Shown here: positions 46,208-61,838 of the stretch, piece after piece
Layout: each line of letters starts with the position of its first letter
Position numbering within the stretch: the stretch's first letter is position 1
Origin: Lentzea fradiae
Lineage (GTDB): Bacteria > Actinomycetota > Actinomycetes > Mycobacteriales > Pseudonocardiaceae
Direction of reading: 5' to 3'
Length of the DNA: 64,000 bases
NCBI RefSeq assembly: GCF_900100955.1
Contig: NZ_FNCC01000005.1
Coordinates: 124,001-188,000, forward strand
Made by a program: the position numbers and the translations under genes
The notes under the pieces: generated by a model
What the model was told of the DNA's origin: nothing
What the model saw: only the letters and a program-made list of their open reading frames with translations
Databases searched by the model: none

Positions 46208-46498
46208 TCACACGACTCCCGTGAGTTGGGTCTGATCGACGTCGTCGCGGCCGTGCGCGGCGCCTGACCGCCTGCACGCGGCGACCCAGCGCAGCCGCCA
46301 GCGGGTGATGTCGCCGCCGCAGGCCCGCGCGATCGCGAGAACCGTGTCGAGCCTGGGGAAGCGACGCCCGGTCAGGGCGTCGTGCAACGTGCTGCGGGCG
46401 CACCCGGTGCGGCGCGCCAGCTCGCGGTAGGACAAGCCGGCCAGCAGACGCAGCTCGTCCAGGTCGGTGCCGAGCTGGTTCCTGCCCCCTGTGGACAT
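46208..46498 (-). CDS. Small XRE-like helix-turn-helix protein
   Basis: This 96-residue protein is a Cro/C1-type helix-turn-helix (LRLLAGLSYRELARRTGCARSTLHDALTGRRFP) with a short Trp/Arg-rich C-terminal helix. ATG 46498 is chosen for its AGGAG site. It lies 101 bp after the SdpB-like C-terminal part on the same strand and may be a local regulator of that locus. It is unrelated to SdpR, which is ArsR-like. Confidence 0.75.
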   Translation of the reverse strand: MSTGGRNQLGTDLDELRLLAGLSYRELARRTGCARSTLHDALTGRRFPRLDTVLAIARACGGDITRWRLRWVAACRRSGAAHGRDDVDQTQLTGVV

Positions 46499-46599
46499 CC
46501 GGACTCCTGTGGTGTTCGGTTCCTCCGTTGCCCTCTCCGCGATCAGCCCACCCGCATGGATACCCGGCGGGCGGGAAAAACGCCACAAGTCGATCTTGG

Positions 46600-46977
46600 T
46601 CACCGTTGACGGTGCCGGCCGCTCGCCGCCGCGGCCACGAACCCGAGCATCACCAGCCCGAAGCTCACGAGACCGAGCACGACGGCGATGCCGCCGTGCA
46701 GCACCACGGCGCACGCGAGACCGGCCCGGCGCAGCGGGGAGTTTCCGAGCACGCAGACCACGATGGCCGTTTCCAGGACGACCGTTCCCCAGGTGGCCAC
46801 CCCGATCACGAAACCTGATTGCAGCAGTGGTGCGAGTTCGGAAGTCGTTCCGAAATACGCGTCCTGCATCACATAGTGCAGTGCGGTCCCGTTACGCCAT
46901 TCCGGTTCCACGAGTTTCGTCCAGACCGCTTGTCCGTACACCACGACCACCTGCGACCGGATCATCCAGTGGGCCAC
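46600..46977 (-). CDS. SdpB-like/HTTM membrane protein, C-terminal part (split gene)
   Basis: This 125-residue membrane segment continues, in the same frame, the protein that stops at 46996. The bridge reads PLPE-stop-RKGSAL, then VAHWMIRSQVVVVYGQAVWTKL. Transmembrane stretches cover ~8-20, 55-80 and 85-118. The motif around QVVVVYGQAVWTKL is typical of HTTM-domain proteins of the SdpB group, where it lies mid-protein. GTG 46977 could serve for re-initiation, with GGAAGGG upstream. The two parts together (~280 residues) match the family's usual length, so this is a nonsense-interrupted gene, a functional two-part protein, or a readthrough product. Confidence 0.65.
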   Translation of the reverse strand: MAHWMIRSQVVVVYGQAVWTKLVEPEWRNGTALHYVMQDAYFGTTSELAPLLQSGFVIGVATWGTVVLETAIVVCVLGNSPLRRAGLACAVVLHGGIAVVLGLVSFGLVMLGFVAAAASGRHRQR

Positions 46978-46995
46978 CAGGGCCGAGCCCTTCCG

Positions 46996-47445
46996 TCATT
47001 CGGGTAACGGTGTGTCCGGGCGTCTCCAATGCCAGATCCGGTCGTCGGTCAGACAGAGCGGGATGAGCAGCAGGGTGACGATTCTCGCCACGTTCTCGCC
47101 GCCGTTCGGGATGTGGATCGCGGCGGCGAGGCTGAATGTCGCGTACCAGTGCGGAACGCACGTCCAGCGCGGACGGTAGCCGGACGCGGCGAGAACCAGG
47201 GCGGCGATCGTCACGACCCGGAAAACCGTCTGGGCGGCGGGAGACGAGCTCGCGCACCACAGCGAAAGCCCTCGCAGCCCGTCGCACCGCGGCCCCGCCG
47301 GACCGCCCGGCACGGCGGGGAAGAGGTCGGAGTCCGAGGTGAACACGAGCACGGTCAGCTCCGCCACCGCGACCAGCGACCGGGCGGCACCGAGCAGCGC
47401 GGTCCGGTGCTCGAACGCGAGGGCGTGGTCTACCGGGGTGCGCAC
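46996..47445 (-). CDS. SdpB-like/HTTM membrane protein, N-terminal part (in-frame stop)
   Basis: This 149-residue N-terminal half has helices at about 13-32, 55-75 and 90-110. It carries the HTTM-type segment AAAIHIPNGGENVARIVTLL and ends LTDDRIWHWRRPDTPLPE-stop. SdpB homologues work with SdpA to mature and export a secreted toxin peptide. GTG 47445 overlaps the end of the SdpA-like gene, as in sdpAB operons. A rare TTA codon lies three codons before the TGA (CCG TTA CCC GAA TGA). The same frame reopens seven codons later as the C-terminal half. Whether this is a mutation or a functional split is unresolved. Confidence 0.65.
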   Translation of the reverse strand: MRTPVDHALAFEHRTALLGAARSLVAVAELTVLVFTSDSDLFPAVPGGPAGPRCDGLRGLSLWCASSSPAAQTVFRVVTIAALVLAASGYRPRWTCVPHWYATFSLAAAIHIPNGGENVARIVTLLLIPLCLTDDRIWHWRRPDTPLPE

Positions 47446-47966
47446 CGCAGGTCCACGACGGCGATGCGCACGACGTGCCGCACCGGCACCGCACGGCTGG
47501 GGCGCTCCACGGTGAACACCGCGGGCCCGCATGGTGTGCCCGGCTTGAAATGGCTGTTCAGCGCCATTCTCGGGGCAGCCGCGATGGCGGCGGCGCAGCC
47601 GGACACCTCGGCCGCCGCGCAGTCCTGCCAGTGCGCGTCCGGAACCTGGTCCACCGTCGCGAGCAGGCGGACGAGGTCGGCGTAGCCGGCCCGGTCGAGG
47701 CCCCCGAGGTGGTCCCGGTCGCCCGCGGTCCGGGTGATCGGGACGAACGCGCCGCCGCCCGCCTGGTGGTAGGCGACGACGAACTCGCGCTCCGCCGCGT
47801 TGGTGAAGAGCCGCATCCCCACCGGCCAGAAGAGCCGGAAGGTCTCCCGCGCGGCGGTGTCGCGCTGCCCGGCGGGCAGCTGGGCGGCGGTGGCGGCGAG
47901 GAACAGCAACCCGAGTGCGGCCGCGGTGCAGCTCATGCCTTTCGCGGCACGGGTTCCGGCGTTCAT
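47430..47966 (-). CDS. SdpA-like peptide-toxin maturation protein
   Basis: This 178-residue protein has one N-terminal transmembrane helix (SCTAAALGLLFLAATAAQL) and the SdpA family block FRLFWPVGMRLFTNAAEREFVVAYH (shown as FRLFWPVGMRLF and EREFVVAYH). A C-terminal domain has paired cysteines (DCAAAEVSGCA). In Bacillus subtilis SdpA works with SdpB to turn pro-SdpC into the SDP cannibalism toxin. Here it is preceded by a 48-residue secreted precursor (22-bp gap) and followed by the SdpB-like gene with a 16-bp overlap, the same order of functions in a compact operon. Confidence 0.75.
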   Translation of the reverse strand: MNAGTRAAKGMSCTAAALGLLFLAATAAQLPAGQRDTAARETFRLFWPVGMRLFTNAAEREFVVAYHQAGGGAFVPITRTAGDRDHLGGLDRAGYADLVRLLATVDQVPDAHWQDCAAAEVSGCAAAIAAAPRMALNSHFKPGTPCGPAVFTVERPSRAVPVRHVVRIAVVDLRCAPR

Positions 47967-47988
47967 GTCGACGAGCTGCCGCGAATTG

Positions 47989-48135
47989 TCAGCACTCGGT
48001 GGTGCACGGCCCGATTATCAGGGCCGTCTTCTTCTCCGATTCAGTGGGAGCGGTGTCCGACAATGCTCCGGAAATGGTGATGATCGCGATTGCGGCAGCT
48101 GCCAGGAGCATGCCGAAGAAGCTGGAACTTCTCAT
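47989..48135 (-). CDS. Small secreted peptide precursor of the Sdp-like locus
   Basis: This 48-residue precursor has the N-terminus MRSSSFFGMLLAAAAIAI, a hydrophobic core to ~21 and a likely signal-peptidase site after SGA (residue 24). The remaining ~24 residues run LSDTAPTESEKKT then ALIIGPCTTEC, ending in two cysteines four apart. ATG 48135 follows GAGGGG nine bases upstream. Codon use is less GC-biased than its neighbours (for example ATA for Ile). It is immediately upstream of the SdpA-like gene and co-directional, so it is the natural candidate for the toxin or signal precursor. It is far shorter than SdpC (about 200 residues), and I see no similarity to it. Confidence 0.65.
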   Translation of the reverse strand: MRSSSFFGMLLAAAAIAIITISGALSDTAPTESEKKTALIIGPCTTEC

Positions 48136-48415
48136 TTTCTTGATCCCCTCGTCGTCGCGCCGGAAACCTCCCCGTCCCCGCCGCTGCGGCAAGGAATATG
48201 GCACCCGTTGTCCGGGTCGTCAACTCATGACGGGGTGTGGTCGGTTGATTCCTCTCAGTGATTCCACCTGATGCTGAATCGGTGCAGGGCAACTGGCGTA
48301 TCTATGGCTCGCGGCGCGCCTCTGAGGAGATAACTGTCGAACTCGCGGCGGTACCCGCTGGTGTCCAACGTCGGGCCCCACTCGTCGTACTCCGAGATGG
48401 AAAGCGTGCGGCTGA
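48136..48415. promoter_or_regulatory. Divergent control region: peptide locus versus SARP regulator
   Basis: This 280-bp region holds promoters for the peptide operon (minus) and the AfsR-type gene (plus). TGATTCC occurs twice (48246 and 48259, 13 bp apart) with an inverted GAATC at 48276. No 11- or 22-bp SARP repeat is evident here. Confidence 0.35.
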
Positions 48416-51400
48416 ATGGAATATCGCATCTTGGGCCCGCTGGAGCTGCGGGCCGCCGGACGGCCCGTCGCCCTCGGCGGCGAGCGGCAGCGGAAGCTGC
48501 TGGCGCTCCTGCTGCTCGGCACCGGCGCCGTCGTGACCTTCGACAGGCTGGTCGACGAGCTGTGGGACGACCCGCCGCAGACCGCGCGCCGGCAGGTCTG
48601 CAACGCGGCCGCCGCGGTGCGCAGGGCCGTGACGCGGGCTGGTGGCCGGCTGACCACCAGCACCCACGGCTACCGCCTCGACCTGCCGGAGGGAGGGCTC
48701 GACGCCGACGTGTTCCGGTCACGGGTCCGGGAGGCGGAGGCGCTGGCCGGGCGGGGAGAGCGGGCGCGGGCGGTCGAGCTGTTGCAGAGCGCGCTGGAGC
48801 TGTGGCGGGGCCCGGTGCTCGCGGGCCTCGACTCGCCGTCGATCACCGCGGCGGCGCACGGCCTGGCCGAACAGCGGCTGCAGACCGTGGAACGCCTCGC
48901 CGGGCTGCGGCTCGAGCTGGGCGAGGTCACCTCGCTGCTGGGACAGCTCACCGGCCTGGTCGCCGAGCACCCGCTGCGGGAGTCGTTGCGCGCCACCCTG
49001 ATGCGGGCGCTCGACAGGGCCGGTCGCCGCGGCGACGCGCTGGCCGTGTTCGAGCAGGGCCGCCGGGTGCTCGCCGAGGAGCTCGGCACCGACCCCGGCC
49101 AGGAGCTGCGGCAGCTGCACGCCGCCCTGCTCGACGACCGGCCGGTCGCCGTGCCCGTTCCCGGGCCGCAGCCGGTAGCCGTCGCACGCCCGCGGTCACC
49201 GCTGCCGTTCGACGTCCCGGACTTCACCGGTCGCGAGTCCGAAGTGGACCGTCTGGTCGAGGCCGTTGCCACGAGCCCGGTCGTCACCGTCGAGGGCATG
49301 GGCGGCATCGGCAAGACGGCCCTGGCCGTGCACGTGGCGCACCGGTTGCAGGACAGGTTCCCCGACGGGCGCTGCTACGTCGACCTGCGCGGTTTCACGG
49401 CGGGCACCGCGCCGATGACCACCGGTGCCGCGCTGGAGGTGCTGCTGCGCCAGGTCGGCGTGCCCGCGCGGGACGTCCCGGTCGACCCCGGCGCGCGCCG
49501 CGAGCTGTGGCTCACCGAGGTGGCGCACCGCCGCGTCCTCGTCGTGCTCGACAACGCGGCCGACGCGAGCCAGGTCCGGCCGTTGCTGCCCGGCGGTTCC
49601 GGCGCGGCCGTGATCGTGGTGAGCCGCTGCCACCTGATGTCGATCGAGGGTGCCGTCCCGGTGTCGCTCGGTGTCCTGCCCGCCGCCGAGGCGGTGGCGT
49701 TGTTCCGCCGCATCGCGGGCGAGGAGCGCACGAACGACGAGCTGGACGCCGTCGGAGAGGTCGTCGAGCTGTGCGGGAGGCTGCCGCTCGCGATCAGGAT
49801 CGCCGCGTCCCGGTTCCGGCGCAGACCCTGGACGGTCGCGCAGCTCGCCGGCCGGTTGCGCGACCCGCGGCACCGCACCCGCGCGTTCACCGTGGACGAC
49901 CTCAGCGTCACCGGCGTCCTCGCGCTGTCCTACCACCACCTCGACGATGACCGGCAGGAGCTGTTCCGGCTGCTGTCGCTGGTCCCCGGCGCCGACTTCG
50001 ACGCGTACGCGGCAGCGGCGCTCGGAGGCGTGGACGTGGCCGGTGCGCAGGACGTGCTGGAGGAGCTGGTCGAGTGCAACCTGCTGATGCAGCGCACGGC
50101 CGACCGGTACTGCCTGCACGACCTCGTCCGCGACTGCGCCCGCGACCTCGCGGGCCAGGCGCACTCACCGTCCGAACTGGACGGTGCGCGGCAGCGGCTG
50201 TTCGACTACTACCTGCACTTCGCCGACGTACGAGTCCGGAGGTTCCAGCCGGGCCAGCGCGGGTTCGAGCCGGAGCTGAGCCGGACGCCGGAGCTGCCGC
50301 CGTCGCGGTCGGAGGAGGAAGACGTCCGCCAGATCCGCGCCGAGTACAAGAACCTGGTGGCGGTGGCGGACTACGCGAGCGAACACGGCTGGCACGCGCA
50401 CGCGTGGCAGCTGCCGTGCCTGCTCATGCCGTACCTGTCCCGTGCCGGGCAGCGGGCGGGCGTGCTCGAACTGTCCCGCAACGCGTTGGAGGCGGCCAGG
50501 ACCCTGCGGGACCGGCGCGGGGAGGCCCTGGCGCTCAAGGCGACCGCGTTCGCGTTGCGGGAGGCGGGAAAGCACGGCGAGGTCCGCGAGTTCCTCGACC
50601 AGGCCATCGCGATCGGCCGCGAGCTCGGCGACCTGACCGGCGTCATCGGAGGGCTCCGCGAGCTCGGCGCGGTCCAGGGGCAGGCCGGTCTGCTGGAGGA
50701 GGCGGCCGCCGCGTTCGCCGAGGCTGCGGCGCTGGCCCGGTCGTCGGGGGACCGCGTGGCCACGACGAACACGATCATCGACCTCGGTGTCATCGACTGC
50801 AACCTCGGCCGGTACGCCGAGGCCGACGCGCGGTTCCGGGACGCGCTCGCGATGCACCGCCGCGACGGCCACGTGGGCGGCGAGGTCATCGTGCTGATCA
50901 ACATCGGCTGGCTGGCGCAGGCGCGCGGCAGGGACGCCGAGGCGGTCGAGGCGCTGGAGAGCGCGGTGCGGCTCAGCCGGGGGATCGGGATGCGGCGGGG
51001 CGAGGGGATCGCGCTGGCGTGGCTGGGAGTCGCGTACCGCAGGCTCGGCCGCATCGCGGAGGCGACCGAGATCGGCCGGGAGGCACTGGCGGTGACGCGG
51101 CGGATGGACCTGCGCGAACCCAGGGGTGACGCGCTCAACGGGCTGGCCGAGACCTACCTGGCCGGGGGCCGGCTGTCCGAAGCCGAGGACCTGCTCGGGG
51201 AGGCCGAGCAGCTCGGGGCGGCGGGGGCGTTGCCGTTGGTGCGGGCCAGAGCGCACGAGGGACTGGCGCACGTCGCGGCACGGCGCGGCGACCACGACTG
51301 GGCGCGCACGCACTGGGAACGCGCCGTCGCGCTGTACCCGGCCGGCGTGGTGGACACCGAGAACCCGCTCGCGCACCTGGCCGACCCCGGCGCTCCGTGC

Positions 51401-51463
51401 CTGCGCTGCTTCTGCGCCCAAGAGGGCCAGCGGGCGCTCGCCGTCGTCGCACCAGCGGTCTGA
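48416..51463 (+). CDS. AfsR/SARP family transcriptional activator with NB-ARC and TPR domains
   Basis: This 1015-residue regulator has an N-terminal Trans_reg_C winged helix (MEYRILGPLELRAAGRPV...RQRKLLALLL, ~1-90) and a BTAD domain (~95-240, DADVFRSRVREAEAL...LRESLRATLMRALDRAGRRGDAL). The NB-ARC ATPase has Walker A VEGMGGIGKTALA (~295-307), Walker B RVLVVLDNA and GRLPLAIRI. C-terminal TPR repeats lie at ~620-960. This is the AfsR architecture: ATP-driven oligomerisation controls binding to direct repeats and activates secondary metabolism. It is divergent from the Sdp-like operon and lies upstream of a second regulator and an NRPS-PKS operon, its likely target. Confidence 0.92.
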   Translation: MEYRILGPLELRAAGRPVALGGERQRKLLALLLLGTGAVVTFDRLVDELWDDPPQTARRQVCNAAAAVRRAVTRAGGRLTTSTHGYRLDLPEGGLDADVFRSRVREAEALAGRGERARAVELLQSALELWRGPVLAGLDSPSITAAAHGLAEQRLQTVERLAGLRLELGEVTSLLGQLTGLVAEHPLRESLRATLMRALDRAGRRGDALAVFEQGRRVLAEELGTDPGQELRQLHAALLDDRPVAVPVPGPQPVAVARPRSPLPFDVPDFTGRESEVDRLVEAVATSPVVTVEGMGGIGKTALAVHVAHRLQDRFPDGRCYVDLRGFTAGTAPMTTGAALEVLLRQVGVPARDVPVDPGARRELWLTEVAHRRVLVVLDNAADASQVRPLLPGGSGAAVIVVSRCHLMSIEGAVPVSLGVLPAAEAVALFRRIAGEERTNDELDAVGEVVELCGRLPLAIRIAASRFRRRPWTVAQLAGRLRDPRHRTRAFTVDDLSVTGVLALSYHHLDDDRQELFRLLSLVPGADFDAYAAAALGGVDVAGAQDVLEELVECNLLMQRTADRYCLHDLVRDCARDLAGQAHSPSELDGARQRLFDYYLHFADVRVRRFQPGQRGFEPELSRTPELPPSRSEEEDVRQIRAEYKNLVAVADYASEHGWHAHAWQLPCLLMPYLSRAGQRAGVLELSRNALEAARTLRDRRGEALALKATAFALREAGKHGEVREFLDQAIAIGRELGDLTGVIGGLRELGAVQGQAGLLEEAAAAFAEAAALARSSGDRVATTNTIIDLGVIDCNLGRYAEADARFRDALAMHRRDGHVGGEVIVLINIGWLAQARGRDAEAVEALESAVRLSRGIGMRRGEGIALAWLGVAYRRLGRIAEATEIGREALAVTRRMDLREPRGDALNGLAETYLAGGRLSEAEDLLGEAEQLGAAGALPLVRARAHEGLAHVAARRGDHDWARTHWERAVALYPAGVVDTENPLAHLADPGAPCLRCFCAQEGQRALAVVAPAV

Positions 51464-51564
51464 CCTGCGCCGACATCCGTGCATCCGGCGCCGATGCGGC
51501 ACGGATGCACGGGCCGGGTGCACTGGAGGGGTCAGGTCGTCCGGTGAGGAAGTGGTGCTCGAAC

Positions 51565-54500
51565 ATGCGGCAGCCCGCGGTACCCGCAAGGCTGGTGGAC
51601 CGGCCCGCGCTGAGCGCGGCGCTCGACGCGGCGGCCACCCACGAGGTGGTCGTGGTGAAGGCGGGGGCCGGGTGGGGGAAGACGACGGCGGTCGCGGCCT
51701 GGGCGAAGACGCGCCGCGCGTGCTGGTTGACGGTGCCCGGTGCGGACATCTCGCTCGAACGGTTCTCACGGGAGCTGTTGCGCGCCTTGCGGCACCGGCT
51801 GCCGCGCCTGCCCGCCGAGCTGGTCACCACCACCGCCGGTGACGCCACGACGGTCGCGGAGCTGGTCCGCGGGCTGCTGGGCGTCCACCTCGACGAGCCC
51901 GTCGTGCTCGTGGTCGACGACGCGGGCGTGCTGACGGGCGAAGCGGCGCGACTGGTCGAGGAGCTGTGCCTGGACGGTCCCGCCCTGCTCACCCTCGTGC
52001 TGCTCACCCGCGTCGAGCTGGGGTTCGCGGTGCCGGGGGCCGCTGAGATCGACTCGCGGCAGCTCGCGTTCACCGAACGGGAGGTGGCGGCGCTGGCCGG
52101 ACCCGACGCCGCGATGATCTTGGCGCGCACCGGTGGCCGGCCCGCCGCCGTCGCGCTGTACCGGGAGGCGTTGAGCGGCGGCTGCGCGTTGCCGGGGGAG
52201 AGCGGCGACGTGCTGGCACAGCTCTCCGGGAGCGTCCTCGCCGACCAGCCGGAACCGGTGCGGGAGCTGGTGCGCGCCATCGCCGTGCTCGGGTCGGCCC
52301 GCACGGAACTGTGCGTCGCGCTCGGGTTCCCCGACGCGCGCGAGACGCTGCCGGAGCTCGCCCGGCGCGGCCTCGTCACGGGTCCTGAGTGGACGGTCGT
52401 CGAACCGCTGCGCGAGGCGCTGCTCAGGGAACACGCCGATGACGGTGTGCGGGTCAAGGCCGCGGTGTTCTGCGAACGGACCGGCGCGCACGCGGAGGCG
52501 TTGCGGCACCTGGTCGAAGCCGAGAGGTGGGACCTGGTCACCCAGCTGTTGCTGCGGAGGGACGAGCAGATCGTCGCGGGAGGTGACGCGGAAGCGGTTC
52601 TCACCGCGCTGGACCGGATGGAGATCGAAGACCCCCGGCTGCACCTCGTCCGCGGTTTCGCGTTGCAGCACAGGGGTGACTGGCTCGCGGCGGTGCACTG
52701 CTACGAGCAGGCCACCGGTGAGCTGAGACCGTGCACGTCCTGGCGGATGGGCCAGCTGTACGCGCTCACCGGGCAGACCGGCCGCGCGGTCGAGGTGTTC
52801 GAGCGCACGGTGTTCGACGACGTCGTGTCACTGGACGTGGTGCGGCTGCTGTCGCTCGCCACGCACTGGTTCCGCGAGACCGGCCAATGCGAGACCGCGC
52901 GGGAACTGGCCGTTCGGTGCGCCGAGGCCGCCCGGCGCTGCGGCGGGCACGCGGCGTTCGCCTGGAGCGACAAGGCGTTCGGGCTGCTTGCCGGGTACGA
53001 CGGCGACCGGGCCGCCTTCGAACGCCACTACGGCCAGGCGGTCGAGCGGGCGAGACGGGCGGGCAACCGGTTGCTGGAGCTGACGATCCGCACCGAACAG
53101 GCGTGGTTCCGCACCGAGACGGGACCGGAGGAGGCACTCGCCGAGGTGGACGAGGTCCTGGTGCTCGGCAGGCAGGCCGGTCTGATCGGGCACGAGCGGG
53201 ACTGCCGCGGCATCAGGGCGCTGGCGAACGTGCGGCTGGGCCGGTTCGACGCCGCGCTGCGGGACGCCGGGCAGGACCCGCGCACCCTCGTGACGCGGGC
53301 CGAGGTGCACCGCCGCCGGGGCGAACCCGGTCAGGCGCAGGCGTTCCTGGACGAGGCGCTGGCCGCGGGTTCCGACCCGCTCGCCGTGGCGACGCTCGCC
53401 AGGGTCGTGGCCGGCACCGACCTGGCCACCGCCGGCAAGCTCGCGGACCAGGCCGTCGCCACCAGCGCGGTGCTGCGGTCGCGGGAGGTGCCCGCGCTGC
53501 TCGCCCGCGGCTGGGTCGCCGCGCTCGCGGGAGATCGCGAGACGGCACGGGCGGACGCCGCCACCGCGCGGGCGCTCGCCGGACGCCGGGGTGACCGGGC
53601 GGGCCTCGCCGACGCGTTGCAGCTCGCGGCGGTCGTCTCGGCCGACCGCGGGGCTCTGCTCGCCGAGGCCGCGGTGGTGTGGCGCGCGGCGGGCGACCCG
53701 GTCGGCGCGGCGGCGGCGCAGCTGGCGTCGGCCCGGCTGGACGACACGGACCCGGCGGAACCCGAGAACGTGCTACGGCGTCACGGAGTCCGGACCGATG
53801 TACGGATGGCCGACGTGCTCGGCGCGAGCCTGCCGCGCACGGCGCGGATCGTGGTGCGGACCCTCGGCTGGTTCCAGGTCCTGCGGGACGGCATCGCCGT
53901 GCCGACGGCGTCGTGGCAGTCGCGGAAGGCGAGGGACCTGCTGAAGGTCCTCGCGGCCCATCGCGGCCGTCCGGTGCCGCGCCCCCGGTTGGTGGACCTG
54001 CTGTGGCCGGACGACACCTCGGACCGCACGGCGAACCGGCTGTCCGTGCTGCTGTCGACGTTGAGGACGGTGCTTTCCGTTCCGGGACTGCCCGAGGACG
54101 CCGAGCCGCTCGTCGCCGACCGGGACACCGTGTCGCTCGACCTGTCCCTGATTCACCTGGATGTGGCAGTGTTCCTGGACTCGGCGCACCTCGCCCTCGT
54201 CGCACATCGCCGTGGCGACCAGGCGGCGGCGTCGTTGCTGACCGCCGCCGACGAGCTGTACGTCGGCGAGTTCCTGGCTGAGCAACCCTATGAGCAGTGG
54301 GCGGTGCAGGCACGGGAAGAAGTGCAGGGCCGCTACACGGCAGTGCTGCGCGCACTCGTCCAGCTGGTGCGCGATCCCGACCAGCAGGTGGGGTACCTGA
54401 TCCGGATGCTGGAGCTCGACCCGTACGACGAAAGCGCGCACGTACGTCTGGTGAAGGCGCTCAGAGCCGCGGGCAGGCACGGTGAAGCTCGCCGGAGGTA

Positions 54501-54591
54501 CCAGGTGTACCTGGAGCAGATGCGTGAGATCGGTGTCCGTCCCGTGGAACCGGACCTCTTCGCCCCCACGGCTGTCCTCAGGGCCGGCTGA
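51565..54591 (+). CDS. Large ATPase/TPR regulator with C-terminal SARP-like (wHTH-BTAD) domain
   Basis: This ~1008-residue protein has an N-terminal MalT-like P-loop ATPase (Walker A KAGAGWGKTTAVAAW, ~33-47; Walker B VVLVVDDAG) and a long TPR-like helical middle (~300-730). The C-terminal SARP-like unit has a winged helix at ~765-850 (VRTLGWFQVLRDGIAV...SRKARDLLKVLAAHRGRPVPR...LLWPDD) and a BTAD domain (ELDPYDESAHVRLVKALRAAGRHGEARRRY). The DNA-binding part is therefore at the C-terminus, the reverse of AfsR. The start is uncertain (ATG 51565, or GTG 51544). It follows the AfsR-type gene by ~100 bp and ends before a very strong terminator, just upstream of the NRPS operon. Confidence 0.85.
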   Translation: MRQPAVPARLVDRPALSAALDAAATHEVVVVKAGAGWGKTTAVAAWAKTRRACWLTVPGADISLERFSRELLRALRHRLPRLPAELVTTTAGDATTVAELVRGLLGVHLDEPVVLVVDDAGVLTGEAARLVEELCLDGPALLTLVLLTRVELGFAVPGAAEIDSRQLAFTEREVAALAGPDAAMILARTGGRPAAVALYREALSGGCALPGESGDVLAQLSGSVLADQPEPVRELVRAIAVLGSARTELCVALGFPDARETLPELARRGLVTGPEWTVVEPLREALLREHADDGVRVKAAVFCERTGAHAEALRHLVEAERWDLVTQLLLRRDEQIVAGGDAEAVLTALDRMEIEDPRLHLVRGFALQHRGDWLAAVHCYEQATGELRPCTSWRMGQLYALTGQTGRAVEVFERTVFDDVVSLDVVRLLSLATHWFRETGQCETARELAVRCAEAARRCGGHAAFAWSDKAFGLLAGYDGDRAAFERHYGQAVERARRAGNRLLELTIRTEQAWFRTETGPEEALAEVDEVLVLGRQAGLIGHERDCRGIRALANVRLGRFDAALRDAGQDPRTLVTRAEVHRRRGEPGQAQAFLDEALAAGSDPLAVATLARVVAGTDLATAGKLADQAVATSAVLRSREVPALLARGWVAALAGDRETARADAATARALAGRRGDRAGLADALQLAAVVSADRGALLAEAAVVWRAAGDPVGAAAAQLASARLDDTDPAEPENVLRRHGVRTDVRMADVLGASLPRTARIVVRTLGWFQVLRDGIAVPTASWQSRKARDLLKVLAAHRGRPVPRPRLVDLLWPDDTSDRTANRLSVLLSTLRTVLSVPGLPEDAEPLVADRDTVSLDLSLIHLDVAVFLDSAHLALVAHRRGDQAAASLLTAADELYVGEFLAEQPYEQWAVQAREEVQGRYTAVLRALVQLVRDPDQQVGYLIRMLELDPYDESAHVRLVKALRAAGRHGEARRRYQVYLEQMREIGVRPVEPDLFAPTAVLRAG

Positions 54592-54675: not shown

Positions 54676-54720
54676 CGCTCAGGATTCCGGAAGGGTGCGC
54701 TCAGGGCCGGTCCCTAACTT
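54676..54720 (+). promoter_or_regulatory. SARP-type direct repeats and -10 element of the biosynthetic operon
   Basis: CGCTCAGG occurs at 54676-54683 and 54698-54705, exactly 22 bp apart, with 9 of 11 bases matching in the longer frame. A -10-like TAACTT lies at 54715-54720, nine bp beyond the second repeat. SARPs typically bind repeats with 11- or 22-bp phasing about 8 bp upstream of the -10 box. The predicted transcription start falls at or near GTG 54728, giving a leaderless message. Confidence 0.65.
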
Positions 54721-54727
54721 GGCTCCC

Positions 54728-55462
54728 GTGAAGGAAAATGGGGGAAGCGACTGGCTGGTCTGCCCCAGGCCCCGGCCGGACGCGGCGCTGAGGGTGGTGT
54801 GCGTGCCGTACGCCGGCGGCGGGCCGTCGGCGTTCTGGGACTGGCCCGGCCTGCTGGGCGACGACGTCGAGCTGTGGTGCGCGGTCCTGCCGGGACGGGA
54901 ACGGCGGTTCGCCGAACCGGCCCTCACCGACCCGGCGCTCATCGGCGCACCGCTCGCCGCGGCGGTCAGGGCCGAGGTCCGCGCACCGCTGGCGCTGTTC
55001 GGCCACAGCATGGGCGGGCTCATCGCGTTCGACGTGACGCGCAGGCTCGGTGACGCGGCCGGGCACCTGTTCGTCTCCGCGGCCAAGGCGCCGCGCCTGC
55101 CGTTCGGCGACCAGCCGCACCTGCTCGACGACGCGGGCCTGCTGGCCTGGATGACGCGGCTCGGCGGCGTGCCCGAGGACCTGCTGGCGCACGAGGAGAT
55201 GCTCGCCCTGCTCCTGCCGACGCTGCGCGCCGACCTCGCCGTGTGCGCCGCGTTCCACGGCACGGACGCCGTCGTCGACGTGCCCATCACCGCGTTCTCC
55301 GGCACCGACGACCCGCTCGCGTCCGTCGCGGACGTCGCGGCCTGGCAGCACCACACCACCGCCGGCTTCGACCTCGTGGTCCGGCCGGGCGGGCACTTCT
55401 ACCTCCAAGACGATCCGGCTGCGGTGACCTCGGTCGTCGCCGCCAGGGAAGGTGTGCAGTGA
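54728..55462 (+). CDS. Type II thioesterase of the NRPS/PKS cluster
   Basis: This 244-residue alpha/beta hydrolase has CVPYAGGGPSAFWDW, the nucleophile motif LFGHSMGGLIAFD and the catalytic His in VRPGGHFYL. Type II thioesterases remove wrong or stalled acyl groups from carrier domains. GTG 54728 is chosen because it fits the family length and the predicted leaderless transcript; GTG 54695 would overlap the SARP repeats. Its stop overlaps the first NRPS start by GTGA, so it is the first gene of the biosynthetic operon. Confidence 0.9.
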   Translation: MKENGGSDWLVCPRPRPDAALRVVCVPYAGGGPSAFWDWPGLLGDDVELWCAVLPGRERRFAEPALTDPALIGAPLAAAVRAEVRAPLALFGHSMGGLIAFDVTRRLGDAAGHLFVSAAKAPRLPFGDQPHLLDDAGLLAWMTRLGGVPEDLLAHEEMLALLLPTLRADLAVCAAFHGTDAVVDVPITAFSGTDDPLASVADVAAWQHHTTAGFDLVVRPGGHFYLQDDPAAVTSVVAAREGVQ

Positions 55463-58400
55463 CCGAGCACCGCGCCGCGGCCACCCGCGGTCAGCAGCAG
55501 ATCTGGCTCTCCGACCAGCTCGCGCCGGACGCCACGTTCAACACCGTGCCGGTGCACGTGGACATCACCGGCGACCTCGACACCGACGCACTTGCCGCCG
55601 CGCTCACCGCGGTGGTCGACCGGCACGAGCCGTTGCGCACGAGCTACCACCTCGACGGTACGCAGCTTGTCGCGGAAATCCTTCCGGAGGCGCAGGTTTC
55701 CGTTTCCGCACGCGACCTGCGCGACCTCCCGCCCGCCGAACGGTCGGCGCGTGCCGCGGCGCTGGTCGCCGCCGAGCTGGCCCGCCCGATCGACCTCTCG
55801 ACCGGCCTGCCGGTGCGGGTCCTCCTGCTGCGCCTGGAGGACGACCGCCACCAGCTCGTCCTGCTGGTGCACCACATCGCGATCGACGGCGCGTCGGTCG
55901 CGGTGCTCCAGGACGAGCTGCCGCGCTGCTACCGGATGGCGGTGGACGGTGAGGTCGTCGCACTGCCGCGACCGCCGGTCGCCTACCGCGACATCGCCGA
56001 GCCGTCCGGGAACGCCGAGCACTGGCGCGAGGCGCTGGCCGACCTGCCCGCACCGCTGGAGCTGCCCACCATCCGCACGCGCCCCGCCCCACCGGACTTC
56101 AGCGCCGAGGCCCTGCCCCTGGTCGTGCCGGAAGAGCTCGCCGACGCCGTGCGCCGGGTCGCGAGCACCCACCGGTCGTCGTCGTTCATGGTGCTGCTGA
56201 CGGCGTTCTCCGTGCTGCTGCACCGGTTGACGGGCTCACCGGACGTCGTGGTCGGTTCGCCCTCCGCCGGTCGTGAGCACGCCGACACGCACGACCTGGT
56301 CGGCTACTTCGTGACCATGCTGGCGTTGCGGGTGAAGCTCGGCTGGGACCCGACGTTCAGCGAGGCGATGACCGCCGTGCGCGACACCGTGCTGGACGCG
56401 CTGGACCACCGGGACGTGCCGTTCCACGAGGTCTGCGCGGCGCTCGGGCAGACCGGTGACGGCGACCGGCACCCGGTCTTCCAGGTCGTGTTCGCCTCCC
56501 CGCCGCCGCTGGCCGGTCCGCTGGCCGCGGGCGGGTGCGTCTTCACGTTCACCCAGGGCACCAGCGACCAGGGGCTCTACGACTTGGAGCTGCAGCTGCC
56601 CGACTCCGGATCCGGGGAGATGCGTGGCTGGGTCAAGTTCCGCACCGCGCTGTACGACCGGGCGGACGTCCTCGACCTGACCGAACGGTTCGCCACCGTG
56701 CTCGGCCAGCTCACGACGACCCCGGACGCGCGCCTGTCGAACCTGTCGCTGCTCTCCGCCGACGAACGCCGCCGGATCGTCCACGACCTCAACGACAACG
56801 CGACGGACTACCCCGTGCGCACGCTGGTCGAGCTGTTCGAGGAGACCGCCGACCGGCACTCCGATGACGTCGCCGTCGAGTTCGGCGCGCAGCGGCTCAC
56901 CTACGCCGAGCTGGACCAGCGCGCCAACCGGCTCGCCGCCCACCTCGGCACCCTCGGCGTCACGACCGGAACCCCGGTGGGAATCCTGCTGGACCGCGGC
57001 GTGCACTGGGTCGTCACCGCGCTGGCCGTGCTCAAGGCCGGAGGCGCCTACCTGCCGCTCGACCCCGGCTACCCGGTCGAGCGCCTGCGGGCGCTGTGCG
57101 CCGACGCCTCGGCCGCCGTCGTGGTCACCGACCGTCAGGAGGACCTGGGCGTCGAGCTGGTCGACCTGTCCGCGATGGTCCTCACCTGCCCGGCTGACCG
57201 TCCACAACGGACAATCACGGCCGACGACCTCGCGTACGTCATGTACACCTCCGGCTCGACGGGCATGCCGAAGGGCGTGGGCGTCAGCCACCGCAACGTC
57301 GTCCGGCTCGTCCGCGACACCGAGTACGTCGAGTTCCGGCCCGGCGACCGGGTCGCGCAGGCGTCCACGACCACGTTCGACGCCGCGACGTTCGAGGTCT
57401 GGGGCGCGCTGCTCAACGGCGGCCGGCTCGTCGGCCTGCCCAAGGACGTCGCCCTCGACCCGGTCGCGCTCGGGGAGTGGCTGCGCGCCAACGAGATCGC
57501 CACGCTGTTCCTGACCACCTCGGTCGCGATGCACGTGGCCCGCGAGCTGCCCGCCGCGCTGTCCGGGTTGCGGTACTTCGTCTTCGGCGGCGAGCAGCCG
57601 GACGCCCACGCCGTCGCCGCCCTGGTCGCCCACCCCGGCGGCCCAGAGCACGTCGTCAACGGCTACGGCCCGACCGAGGCCACGACGTTCGCCTCCAGCC
57701 ACGAGTGCGAACGCGCGGAAGGCCGGGTTCCGCTCGGCCGCGCGCTGAACAACACCCAGCTGTACGTGCTGGACCAGTACCTGGAGCCGGTCCCGCCGAT
57801 GGCCGTCGGCGAGCTGTGCATCGGAGGTGACGGCGTCGGCCGCGGGTACGTCGGCAACCCCGCGCTGACGGCGGAGAAGTTCGTGCCGGACCACCTGGGC
57901 GGCAAGGAGGGCGCGCGGCTCTACCGGACCGGTGACCTCGCGCGGCTCCTGCCCGACGGCACGTTCGAGTACCTCGGGCGGGCGGACCGGCAGGTCAAGA
58001 TCCGCGGGTTCCGCATCGAACCGGGCGAGGTCGAGGCGTGCCTGCACGGCTCGGGCCTCGTCCGCCAGGCCGTGGTCGTGCCGCGCGAGGACGCCGCCGG
58101 GGACGTGAGCCTGGTCGGGTACGTCGTGCTGGAACGGGCCGGTGCCGGCCAGGTCGAGGAGCTGCTGCGGCACGTGCGCGACGCGCTGCCCGCCTACCTC
58201 GTGCCGTCCGCGCTGGTGCCGCTGGAGGCGTTGCCGTTGACGCGCAACGGCAAGCTCGACCTGCGGGCGTTGCCGGACCCGGAGGTCGAGGCCGCGGCAC
58301 CGGAGGAGCCGCGGACGCCGACCGAGGCCGCCGTGGCGGACCTCTGGCGGCAGGTCCTCGGCGCCGAGCCGGTCGGGCGGGACGCCAACTTCTTCGACCT

Positions 58401-58614
58401 GGGCGGGCACTCGCTCAAGGCCGCCCGGATCCTCTCGCGCATCGAGAACGACCTCGGCGTCCGGCTGCCGATGCGGTCGCTCTTCGACCACCCGACCGTG
58501 GCCGGCATCGCGACCGAGGTCGACCGGCTGCGTGACGCCACACCCGTGTCCGCGGGCGCGATCCGGGCAGGGGCCAGGTCCTCGCTCTCCGTCGCCGACC
58601 TGCTCGACCTGTGA
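55459..58614 (+). CDS. NRPS, one module (condensation-adenylation-thiolation)
   Basis: This 1051-residue protein has a C domain at ~5-430 with HHIAIDG at 138-144. The A domain (~455-950) has YTSGSTGMPKG at 596, NGYGPTEATT and YRTGDLARLLPDG. The carrier domain has FDLGGHSLKA with the phosphopantetheine Ser985. By my alignment to GrsA the ten specificity residues read DAFFVGGTFK, close to known valine (DAFWIGGTFK) and isoleucine (DAFFYGITFK) codes, so Val or a similar branched residue is predicted. Because the first module starts with a C domain, it may N-acylate its residue or accept a chain from another protein. It overlaps the thioesterase gene by GTGA. Confidence 0.95.
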   Translation: MTEHRAAATRGQQQIWLSDQLAPDATFNTVPVHVDITGDLDTDALAAALTAVVDRHEPLRTSYHLDGTQLVAEILPEAQVSVSARDLRDLPPAERSARAAALVAAELARPIDLSTGLPVRVLLLRLEDDRHQLVLLVHHIAIDGASVAVLQDELPRCYRMAVDGEVVALPRPPVAYRDIAEPSGNAEHWREALADLPAPLELPTIRTRPAPPDFSAEALPLVVPEELADAVRRVASTHRSSSFMVLLTAFSVLLHRLTGSPDVVVGSPSAGREHADTHDLVGYFVTMLALRVKLGWDPTFSEAMTAVRDTVLDALDHRDVPFHEVCAALGQTGDGDRHPVFQVVFASPPPLAGPLAAGGCVFTFTQGTSDQGLYDLELQLPDSGSGEMRGWVKFRTALYDRADVLDLTERFATVLGQLTTTPDARLSNLSLLSADERRRIVHDLNDNATDYPVRTLVELFEETADRHSDDVAVEFGAQRLTYAELDQRANRLAAHLGTLGVTTGTPVGILLDRGVHWVVTALAVLKAGGAYLPLDPGYPVERLRALCADASAAVVVTDRQEDLGVELVDLSAMVLTCPADRPQRTITADDLAYVMYTSGSTGMPKGVGVSHRNVVRLVRDTEYVEFRPGDRVAQASTTTFDAATFEVWGALLNGGRLVGLPKDVALDPVALGEWLRANEIATLFLTTSVAMHVARELPAALSGLRYFVFGGEQPDAHAVAALVAHPGGPEHVVNGYGPTEATTFASSHECERAEGRVPLGRALNNTQLYVLDQYLEPVPPMAVGELCIGGDGVGRGYVGNPALTAEKFVPDHLGGKEGARLYRTGDLARLLPDGTFEYLGRADRQVKIRGFRIEPGEVEACLHGSGLVRQAVVVPREDAAGDVSLVGYVVLERAGAGQVEELLRHVRDALPAYLVPSALVPLEALPLTRNGKLDLRALPDPEVEAAAPEEPRTPTEAAVADLWRQVLGAEPVGRDANFFDLGGHSLKAARILSRIENDLGVRLPMRSLFDHPTVAGIATEVDRLRDATPVSAGAIRAGARSSLSVADLLDL

Positions 58615-58628
58615 GAAGGGGAAAAATC

Positions 58629-61600
58629 GTGCAGGACGTGTTGCGGCGCTTGCGAGCGCTGGACCAGGAGAAGCGCGCGGCCGTGTTCGCGCGGATCGCC
58701 GAACACGGCGAGGACTTCAACGTGCACCCGGTGTCGCCGGGCCAGCGGCGGCTGTGGCTGCTGGACCAGCTGCACCCCGGCAGCCCCGTCTACAACGTGC
58801 CGTACGCCTTCCGGCTGCGCGGCCCCGTGGACGCGGGGGCGTTGTCGGCCGCGCTGGTGGAGCTCGGCCTGCGGCACGAGGTGCTGCGGACGGTGTTCCT
58901 GGACCTCGATGGCGACCCGCGTCAGGTGATCCTGCCGGAGCCGCAGTTCTCACTGGTGGTGACGCACGCCGACGTCACTGATCGGGACGCTTACGCGGTT
59001 TCCCGGGCCGCCGAGGCGGCGCGGGAGCCGTTCGATCTCGCCGATGGACCGTTGCTGCGCGCGGAACTCGTCGTCTTCGACCCCACGGACTCGTTGCTGC
59101 TGATCTCGATGCACCACATCGTGTGCGACGGGTGGAGCACGCAGCTGCTGTTCTCGGAGCTGAGCACCGTCTACTCCGGACAGCACCTCGGCCCGGCACC
59201 CGCGCAGTACCTCGACTTCAGCCGCTGGCAGGCGGAGTGGCTCGACGGGCAGGAGAGCGCCGAACAGCTCGGCTACTGGACCCGGCAGCTCGCCGGGATC
59301 CCGCCCGTGCTCGGACTGCCGACGGACCGCCCGCGTCCGGCCGTGATGCGGATGTGCGGCGGCGCCGTCGAGTTCGCCTGGCCCGCGTCGCTCAAGGAGC
59401 GGCTCGACGAGTTCTGCCTGGCCGAGCGCGTCACGCCGTTCATGGTTCTCGTGACCGCGTGGAACGTCCTGCTGCACCGCTACTCCGGCGCGGACGACGT
59501 CGTCGTCGGCACGAACGTCGGCGCCCGCAGGGTCGAGATCGAGGACGCGGCAGGCTTCTTCGTCAACACCGTCGCCCTCCGCACGAAGATCGACCCGGCG
59601 GTGAGCTTCCGGGAGCTGCTGCACCAAGTCCGCGACACGACCCTGGCCGCCCAGCAGCACCAGGACCTGCCGTTCGAACGGGTCGTCGAGGCGCTCGCAC
59701 CGCCGCGCAGCACCGCGCACCAGCCGGTCGTGCAGACCGTCGTCGGCATGGAGGACGGCCAGCACTCGCTGCTCTCGCTCCCCGGCGTGGACGTGCGGCG
59801 CGTCCCCGCGCACTCGGGCACCGCCAAGTGGGACCTGGAACTGGGCGTCACCTCCACCGAGGGCGGCATCACCGGGCTGCTGGAGTACGACAGCGACCTG
59901 TACGACCGGGAGACCGCCAGCCGCCTGCTCGGCCACCTGGAGGTGCTGCTGACCGCAGGGCTCGCTGACCCGTCGTGCTCGGTGGGCCGGCTGCCGCTGC
60001 TCACCTCGGCCGAGCGGGTGCGGCTGCTGGACGAGTGGAACCCGCACGCCGAGGCACGGCTGGACGGCGTGCTGGTGCACGAGCTGACCGAGGCGTCCGC
60101 CGACCGCACACCCGACGCCGTGGCACTCGTGTTCGAGGACCAGGAGCTGACCTACCGGGAGCTGGACGAGCGGGCGAACCGGCTCGCGCACCTGCTCCGC
60201 TCGCGTGGCATCGGGCGCGGTGACCTCGTCGGCATCAGCCTGCCGCGCTCGCTCGACCTCGTGGTGGCACAACAGGCCGTGCTCAAGTCGGGCGCCGCGT
60301 ACGTGCCGCTGGACCCTGAGTACCCGGCAGACCGGCTCGCGTACATGGTGTCCGACTCGGGGCTGCGGCTGGTCGTGACGCTGGACCGGTTCGCGGCACG
60401 GTTCCCCGGCGCCGACGCGTTGCCGCTGGACGAGACCGACCTGTCCGGCCTGCCCGCCGACCGTCCACACCGGACGATCGAGCCGGACGACCTGGCGTAC
60501 GTCATCTACACGTCCGGCTCCACCGGCAAGCCGAAAGGCGCCATGCTGCCGCACCGGGGCGTGGCGAACCTCGCGGACGAGCTCGCGCGGATGCTCGGCA
60601 TCGGGCCGGGCAACCGGATGCTGCAGTTCGCGTCGTTCAGCTTCGACGTGTCGGTGGCCGACATCATGGTCACGCTGAGCGCGGGCGCGACCGTCGTCCT
60701 GGCGGCGCAGCACGACCTGCAACCCGGCCCCGACCTCGCCCGCACGATCAACTCCCAGCGCGTCGACGTGGCGTGCCTGCCGCCGACCGTGCTGCGGCTG
60801 ACCGACCCCGCGCTGGTGCCCGGCCTGCGCACGCTGATGGCGGGCGGCGAGGCGTGCCCGGACGAGGTCGCGGCGGCGTGGGCACCCGGTCGCCGGTTCA
60901 TCAACATCTACGGCCCGACCGAGGCGAGCATCTGGATCACGTCGACGGAGTGCGACGGGACCGAGAGCCCGCTGCCGATCGGCCGGCCGATCAGGGGCAA
61001 CACCGCGTACGTCCTCGACGAGCACCGCGAGCCGCTGCCCGCCGGCATCCCCGGTGAGCTGCACCTCGGCGGAGTGCAGGTCGCCCGCGGCTACCTCGAC
61101 CGGCCGGAGCTGACCGCGGAACGGTTCGTGCCGAACCCGTTCGGTGCGGGGCGTCTGTACCGCACCGGTGACCTCGCGCGGTTCCTGCCGGACGGGCGGA
61201 TCGAGTTCCTGCGCCGCCTGGACGACCAGATCAAGCTGCGCGGGTACCGGATCGAGCTCGGCGAGATCCAGACCGCGGTGGCCCAGCACCCGTCGGTGCG
61301 GGCGGCCGTCGTCATCGCCCGCGAGGACGTGCCCGGCGACGTGCGGCTGGTCGCCTACGCGGTGGCCGGGCAGGGGCACCGGATCGACCCGGCCGAGCTG
61401 CGCGCACACGTGCGGCGCGGGTTGCCGGAGTACATGGTGCCGTCGGCGTTTGTCGAGGTGCCGACGATCCCGCGCAACCCCAACGGCAAGCTCGACCGCC
61501 GCGCGCTGCCCGCGCCGGAGTCGGTGCGCACCGAACGGGTCGTGGTGCCGATCGGCAACCGGACCGAGCGCGCGATCTCGGACGTCTGGCGCGAGGTCCT

Positions 61601-61838
61601 GCGGACGGACCGGGTCGGCGCCGACGACAACTTCTTCGACCTGGGCGGCAACTCCGTGCTCCTGGTCAAGGCCCGCAGCCGGCTCGCGGAGGTGTTCGAG
61701 CGGGAGGTGCCGACGGTCATGTTGTTCACCTACCCGACCGTCCGCGCGCTGGCTGCCCACTTCGACGGGACCGGCACGACCGCGTCCCGCGCGTCCGGCG
61801 GCAGGGGAGCCCTGCTCGCCAGGGGGAGGAAGGCATGA
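58629..61838 (+). CDS. NRPS, one module (condensation-adenylation-thiolation), atypical A-domain code
   Basis: This 1069-residue protein has an N-terminal helical linker, a C domain (HHIVCDG from 162), an A domain with YTSGSTGKPKG at 627, NIYGPTEASIW and YRTGDLARFLPDG, and a carrier domain with FDLGGNSVLLVK (Ser1009). My alignment gives the code DVACMGIIWK. Only its end resembles glycine codes (DILQLGLIWK), so the substrate is uncertain and may be unusual. GTG 58629 is preferred (GAAGGGG seven bases upstream) over GTG 58611, which overlaps the previous stop. Its stop overlaps the PKS start by ATGA, so its residue is handed to a ketosynthase. Confidence 0.94.
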   Translation: MQDVLRRLRALDQEKRAAVFARIAEHGEDFNVHPVSPGQRRLWLLDQLHPGSPVYNVPYAFRLRGPVDAGALSAALVELGLRHEVLRTVFLDLDGDPRQVILPEPQFSLVVTHADVTDRDAYAVSRAAEAAREPFDLADGPLLRAELVVFDPTDSLLLISMHHIVCDGWSTQLLFSELSTVYSGQHLGPAPAQYLDFSRWQAEWLDGQESAEQLGYWTRQLAGIPPVLGLPTDRPRPAVMRMCGGAVEFAWPASLKERLDEFCLAERVTPFMVLVTAWNVLLHRYSGADDVVVGTNVGARRVEIEDAAGFFVNTVALRTKIDPAVSFRELLHQVRDTTLAAQQHQDLPFERVVEALAPPRSTAHQPVVQTVVGMEDGQHSLLSLPGVDVRRVPAHSGTAKWDLELGVTSTEGGITGLLEYDSDLYDRETASRLLGHLEVLLTAGLADPSCSVGRLPLLTSAERVRLLDEWNPHAEARLDGVLVHELTEASADRTPDAVALVFEDQELTYRELDERANRLAHLLRSRGIGRGDLVGISLPRSLDLVVAQQAVLKSGAAYVPLDPEYPADRLAYMVSDSGLRLVVTLDRFAARFPGADALPLDETDLSGLPADRPHRTIEPDDLAYVIYTSGSTGKPKGAMLPHRGVANLADELARMLGIGPGNRMLQFASFSFDVSVADIMVTLSAGATVVLAAQHDLQPGPDLARTINSQRVDVACLPPTVLRLTDPALVPGLRTLMAGGEACPDEVAAAWAPGRRFINIYGPTEASIWITSTECDGTESPLPIGRPIRGNTAYVLDEHREPLPAGIPGELHLGGVQVARGYLDRPELTAERFVPNPFGAGRLYRTGDLARFLPDGRIEFLRRLDDQIKLRGYRIELGEIQTAVAQHPSVRAAVVIAREDVPGDVRLVAYAVAGQGHRIDPAELRAHVRRGLPEYMVPSAFVEVPTIPRNPNGKLDRRALPAPESVRTERVVVPIGNRTERAISDVWREVLRTDRVGADDNFFDLGGNSVLLVKARSRLAEVFEREVPTVMLFTYPTVRALAAHFDGTGTTASRASGGRGALLARGRKA

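Follow-up and report, generated by a model that had tools for sequence, protein, structure and literature searches.

A small-peptide class of sdpAB loci co-inherited with a SARP regulator in actinobacteria: a candidate peptide signaling module

In Bacillus, SdpA and SdpB are both needed for processing of SdpC, and the resulting 42-residue toxin is the hydrophobic domain of that protein (PMC6818787). Bacillus SdpAB homologues make the toxins SDP and YIT, and SdpC homologues differ in their C-terminal toxin sequence (PMC6818787). A 64,000-nucleotide stretch of the Lentzea fradiae genome (here called the window) encodes SdpA- and SdpB-like proteins next to a predicted secreted precursor of only 48 residues, which raises the question of what such a cassette matures and to what end. 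Based on comparison with related loci in several groups of actinomycetes, the module looks like an undescribed peptide signaling system and not like a classic toxin locus. Its features, in coordinates of the window, are as follows.

46600..46977, reverse strand: C-terminal piece of SdpB, matching TIGR04033 positions 154-270; a GTG start is possible
46996..46998, reverse strand: in-frame TGA in SdpB, a sense codon in the same alignment column of the five nearest relatives
46996..47445, reverse strand: N-terminal piece of SdpB, ending at the TGA and matching TIGR04033 positions 10-135; start at 47445 chosen by means of relatives
47430..47966, reverse strand: SdpA-like protein, 178 amino acids, from Pfam and NCBIfam matches and conserved cysteines
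47989..48135, reverse strand: precursor peptide gene, 48 residues, from the list of open reading frames, recurrence at homologous loci and dN/dS
47992..48063, reverse strand: hydrophilic tail LSDTAPTESEKKTALIIGPCTTEC, left after signal cleavage as predicted by a simple rule
48195..48223, reverse strand: promoter-like site TTGACG-17-CATATT, 5' of the small ORF
48416..51463, forward strand: SARP regulator (BTAD-NB-ARC-TPR, 1015 amino acids), divergent from the peptide gene, from Pfam, tree and structural relatives
51397..54591, forward strand: second regulator with a C-terminal BTAD domain, kept beside the first in a six-genome Lentzea group
54695..64000, forward strand: start of an NRPS-PKS cluster (thioesterase, two C-A-T proteins, KS-AT), running on past the end of the window

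An initial annotation had described a reverse-strand cassette of peptide, SdpA and SdpB. The peptide ORF, the SdpA-like ORF and the SdpB homology are indeed present, but SdpB is broken by the in-frame TGA, which had been overlooked, as had the linked SARP regulator and the neighboring NRPS-PKS cluster. SdpA matched Pfam SdpA (PF17418) with 32.3 bits (cut-off, 25) and NCBIfam TIGR04034 with 19.3 bits (cut-off, 53.1); its cysteines C116, C124, C146 and C175 were invariant in 43 aligned SdpA sequences from both kinds of locus distinguished below. The SdpB region (47445-46600) consists of two same-frame ORFs split by the TGA, and the cut-off of TIGR04033 was exceeded only if the region was read across the stop (196.9 bits versus 178.4). 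The C-terminal piece matched HTTM with 22.6 bits (cut-off, 27.7). A profile of SdpB relatives also matched VKGC chains, weakly (E 0.0024), so that SdpB may be distantly related to vitamin K-dependent carboxylase.

The stop was absent from all 12 other places with a TIGR04033 match in the genus (10 near full length, 1 partial and 1 a 48-position fragment), and relatives have the module intact, for example Lentzea waywayandensis DSM 44232 (L083 and L090). Downstream of it, dN/dS values of pairs that include the window copy were 0.23 to 0.37, versus 0.17 to 0.37 in ten intact pairs. Since the part after the stop keeps such low values, the TGA is either recent, a sequencing error or tolerated via a restart at the GTG. 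Because SdpB is interrupted, the system may be inactive in this genome, and the window cassette could even be a remnant without present function. For this explanation, which concerns L. fradiae only and is compatible with every other reading considered here, the evidence is evenly balanced: besides the private stop codon, each of the five relatives had its highest peptide dN against the window copy, but the reading frames of peptide, SdpA and SARP are all open, and SdpB after the stop evolves much like its intact counterparts.

The proposed 48-residue precursor ORF was confirmed, including its tail ending in ...GPCTTEC. A noncoding pattern of synonymous and nonsynonymous changes would have spoken against the ORF; among six Lentzea copies, however, dN (0.08 to 0.30) was well below dS (0.58 to 1.62) in 15 pairwise comparisons, and third positions accounted for more than half of the changes in each of the 15 pairs. 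The small ORF thus evolves as coding sequence in Lentzea. The promoter-like site upstream of it was the sole one in 46400-48500, versus 0.0 ± 0.1 in shuffled sequences, and its TTGAC and ATATT are conserved columns of the six-genome Lentzea alignment. Searched against NCBIfam and Pfam, the window peptide had zero matches, and none of 10 representatives of the 37 peptides described below scored above any curated cut-off; matches below threshold included TAT_signal_seq (16.2; cut-off, 16.7) and PhrA (12; cut-off, 40).

Homologous loci were collected with TIGR04033. Matches were found in 10 of 24 genomes of the genus, in 73 of 390 genomes of the family (26 over the cut-off) and in 90 of 394 genomes of the class (13 over the cut-off). 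From the family search we took 36 loci (34 places above ∼130 bits besides the window, plus 2 weaker ones), leaving out weaker HTTM-like matches, and from the class search 13 places over the cut-off besides the window. A scan of named genomes yielded 42 loci, of which 23 were set aside as copies of loci already collected and 19 were used. The resulting 69 loci, window included, were reduced to 65 that could be classed, after L080 and L081 (below the cut-off, no SdpA-SdpB cassette recognized), L187 (taken as a duplicate of L122) and L054 had been dropped. The last is an orphan SdpB over the family cut-off, beside which no SdpA, SdpC or small peptide was recognizable.

Two kinds of locus emerged. 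In 27 loci, the gene directly 5' of sdpA encoded an SdpC-like protein of ∼190 to 265 residues (counted from the longest start). In 37 of the 38 others, which include the window, a peptide of 37 to 68 residues (median, 49) was encoded at this position; at the remaining one, L057, SARP and SdpAB were present, and a small ORF was looked for and not found. In the SdpB tree, the small-peptide loci (38 rows) and the SdpC-type loci (27 rows) fell on two sides of a single branch with support of 100/98. The recurrence of a small ORF directly 5' of sdpA, suggested earlier as a check, was therefore found on one side of this tree, and it supports the proposed new small class of SdpAB-linked precursors.

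A rule for recognizing such ORFs (35 to 75 residues, a membrane segment near the N terminus and a ribosome site) was set after the family had been seen. ORFs of this description were found at 29 of 29 small-peptide loci tried versus 5' of 3 of 127 other genes in the same stretches. Of the 37 peptides, 29 entered this control, in which the stop codon of the peptide served to place sdpA at the small-peptide loci. The small ORF is hence more than a chance occurrence.

The small-peptide kind was found in Pseudonocardiaceae (Lentzea, Amycolatopsis, Saccharothrix, Kutzneria, Actinosynnema, Umezawaea and Solihabitans) and also in Nonomuraea, Actinoplanes, Actinorhabdospora, Actinocrinis and Streptacidiphilus. 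Some genomes (G022, G006, G081, G099 and that of Actinorhabdospora filicis, with L106 and L113) carry two small-peptide modules with differing tails.

Loci of the SdpC type (sdpCAB of Streptomyces and others) share with the small-peptide loci the gene order, a precursor directly 5' of sdpA and the four SdpA cysteines. They differ in lying across the dividing branch of the SdpB tree, in a longer SdpC with a hydrophobic C-terminal stretch and in having no regulator of the linked group described below. Given the synteny with SdpC, the small peptide is likely an SdpAB substrate, which suggests a second, much smaller substrate class for SdpAB-like maturation proteins. A normal SdpC encoded elsewhere in the genome, which would have argued against this assignment, was looked for with TIGR04032, and no match was found in the 8.5 Mb at E 0.1, with a positive Bacillus control. 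The sole SdpI match of the genome lies on another contig, in line with the initial annotation, which had reported no sdpI nearby. Compared with sdpABC and yitPOM of Bacillus subtilis, the module thus has the SdpA and SdpB homologues and a (here predicted) secreted precursor beside them in common; unlike there, the precursor is 37 to 68 instead of ∼200 residues long and has a hydrophilic tail, and there is no linked SdpI but a SARP regulator instead.

The peptides consist of an N-terminal membrane or signal segment and a short, mostly hydrophilic tail. By eye, the family resembles itself most in the N-terminal part, with tails that vary from group to group. A terminal CxxxC, originally taken as the defining feature of the precursor, was not borne out and was rejected as a hallmark of the family: at least two tail cysteines were present in 16 of 37 peptides, one in 3 and none in 18, and only 6 of 37 peptides ended strictly in CxxxC. 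Some of the peptides ended in CTTGEC, CTTGC, CSTGC, CFC, CEDC, CIGC or CTSC, and an N-x-V-like motif occurred in 14 of 37, each with one or no cysteine in the tail. Cleavage sites were predicted by a simple, crude rule instead of SignalP, and on this basis one could be placed in 36 of 37 peptides, several being of the A-x-A type. The tails left after predicted cleavage comprised 13 to 49 residues, with negative GRAVY in 32 of 37 (window tail, -0.22) and negative net charge in 31 of 37. For SdpC-type proteins, in contrast, 19-residue hydropathy maxima of 1.0 to 2.67 were found within the last 90 residues (26 of 27), which agrees with the hydrophobic toxin domain of Bacillus SdpC. As most of the tails are without a hydrophobic stretch, the peptides do not resemble small SDP toxins.

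The small-peptide loci also have a regulator in common. The SARP of the window matched BTAD (137.6 bits), NB-ARC (34.2) and TPR_12 (95.4), all over their cut-offs, and Trans_reg_C with 24.4 bits (cut-off, 26.2); its alignment with AfsR begins at residue 2, and its best solved relatives are the AfsR structures 8k60 and 8jke. The TPR part matched LGN/Pins TPR proteins with modest scores, as is generic for such repeats. LGN/Pins TPR proteins bind peptides. Close to their C terminus, the linked SARPs carry a C-x-x-C pair (window positions 51398-51409) that did not vary among 28 aligned sequences.

The window's SARP was matched at 38 of 38 small-peptide loci, by an adjacent and divergent gene at 35 and, in other arrangements, by a gene within 5 kb on the other side at 3 (L095 of Nonomuraea and L106 and L113 of Actinorhabdospora). 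At L064, L070 (a 326-residue ORF) and L100 (at a contig edge), the match was confined to the N-terminal part, so that the TPR domain is not demonstrated there. Regulator matches at SdpC-type loci amounted to 2 of 27 and were weaker; two others of the 27, L048 and L120, lie on contigs of less than 6 kb. At the SdpC-type locus L190, a SARP is located 4.6 kb away and falls outside the linked-SARP group. At L047, also of the SdpC type, a same-strand gene ∼3.3 to 1.9 kb 5' of sdpB gave an NB-ARC/TPR match of 144 bits and has no SARP part; it may represent an independent case of regulator linkage.

In a tree of SARP sequences, 35 linked SARPs were separated from 29 others by one branch with support of 100/99. 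Linked rows for L064, L078 and L100 were left out (no match stretch of at least 250 residues), and one stray L064 row and a second copy of the window SARP were deleted manually. AfsR and other large SARPs have BTAD, NB-ARC and TPR domains in common with these proteins, which nevertheless form a group of their own tied to small-peptide sdpAB. Distances between SdpB proteins correlated with those between the SARPs of the same 35 loci (r = 0.892), and none of 2,000 shuffles gave a value as high. The SARP is thus co-inherited with the small-peptide sdpAB module. The genome has 49 BTAD matches; among its 30 best BTAD loci, a small ORF of the kind defined above was found at 2, the window SARP and L181, whose ORF was judged unconvincing. 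Repeats that a SARP might bind were looked for in the intergenic region, whose alignment showed conserved blocks and, by eye, no clear repeat.

A small precursor peptide, SdpA, SdpB and a SARP, as a rule a large one, are inherited together as a module of their own in actinobacteria. We propose that the peptide is exported through its N-terminal segment and, like Bacillus SdpC, matured by SdpA and SdpB. Its hydrophilic tail, once released, would then be a peptide signal acting on the linked SARP, either directly via the TPR domain or indirectly. An SdpAB-matured peptide signal that acts through the SARP is, in our opinion, the best reading of the module, although we would place it only midway between doubtful and probable. 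Co-inheritance of the SARP, which usually has a TPR domain, the hydrophilic and variable tails and the lack of a recurring immunity gene are indirect arguments that favor a signal. If the TPR receptor is cytoplasmic, the peptide would have to be imported.

The initial annotation had left the choice between a minimal bacteriocin and a signal with a new class of substrate. The new class stood up to comparison; a bacteriocin was made less plausible by the hydrophilic, acidic tails and by the neighborhoods, in which no recurrent family beside the module, immunity-like or other, occurred in more than 7 loci of the stretches compared. Under such an explanation, SdpAB would mature a short inhibitory peptide, and the SARP would do no more than activate transcription of the operon, in which case its linkage is equally expected. 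That Bacillus SdpAB homologues make toxins and that the tails differ strongly between groups are both consistent with this. Moreover, YIT has its own antitoxin, which is unlike SdpI, and a missing SdpI is therefore compatible with immunity (PMC6818787). Most tails, however, are without the hydrophobic segment seen in the SdpC-type proteins, and the SARP is co-inherited. We thus consider a small bacteriocin unlikely and rate the signal above it, with both unproven. Still less probable is that the small protein is not secreted and serves as a membrane subunit or as an anchor that keeps SdpAB or the SARP membrane-bound, in the manner of a switch; by eye, similarity is highest in the N-terminal membrane segment, and the simple rule placed no cleavage site in L065, but the small protein takes the place of SdpC, a known substrate, in the sister loci, and the same crude rule found cleavage sites, several of the A-x-A type, in all other peptides.

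The peptide signal with its linked SARP can be compared with other regulatory systems. In design, though not in membership, it is like the RRNPP systems of Firmicutes, in which a small gene for an exported precursor adjoins a gene for a TPR regulator, export being a prediction for the peptide here. Known RRNPP receptors have an HTH-TPR architecture. The regulator here, unlike these, is a SARP-NB-ARC-TPR protein by Pfam, and SdpAB is present. In the host phylum, signals are described as being, typically, small molecules (PMC10075063). A precedent is the SARP NosP, whose DNA binding changes in response to ligands that stem from the precursor peptide of nosiheptide, and hence from a ribosomal precursor as proposed here; unlike here, these ligands are a thiopeptide and its intermediates, and the passages on NosP name neither SdpAB nor a gene dedicated to a signal (PMC10972967). 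A search by title of open-licence full-text literature yielded no report of SdpAB with small precursors or of a dedicated SARP signal peptide, which is weak evidence.

In Lentzea, the module adjoins a conserved NRPS-PKS cluster in six genomes. Located 3' of the SARP in 5 of 5 relatives examined is the second regulator (74 to 81% identity), followed by cluster genes, of which the thioesterase, two NRPS proteins and the PKS protein were 76 to 86% identical in all five. On the sdpB side of the module, by contrast, the surroundings in the six genomes were of four different kinds. In neighborhoods that mostly extended ∼7 kb to either side (8 kb in the case of the window), NRPS/PKS domain matches were found at 6 of 38 small-peptide loci versus 0 of 27 SdpC-type loci; of the 32 small-peptide loci with no match in the stretch, 5 are the Lentzea relatives, in which the cluster lies further out.

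The SARP might control the operon of the peptide and, where it adjoins the module as in Lentzea, the NRPS-PKS cluster as well. More tentatively, and with somewhat less confidence than in the peptide signal as such, one can envisage a ribosomal peptide autoinducer system in which SdpAB, known from toxin maturation, has been recruited to release a short hydrophilic pheromone, with the TPR domain of a dedicated SARP as its reader. This regulator would switch on its own peptide operon and neighboring antibiotic-type clusters, and group-specific tails, or two modules in one genome, would provide separate channels. The activating input of large SARP regulators is poorly known; AfsR probably requires signaling compounds, and the part played by small molecules in signal transduction through SARPs has been named as a subject for study (PMC10972967). 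A linked, variable and genetically encoded peptide is a directly testable SARP input, and silent clusters might be activated with a short synthetic peptide.

At the other end of the module, 3' of sdpB, there was no generally recurring gene family. At seven small-peptide loci (L051, L057, L063, L072, L074, L076 and L079), however, a gene that overlaps the stop of sdpB or lies near it encodes an acetyltransferase-like protein (named from reading the sequence), possibly an accessory enzyme.
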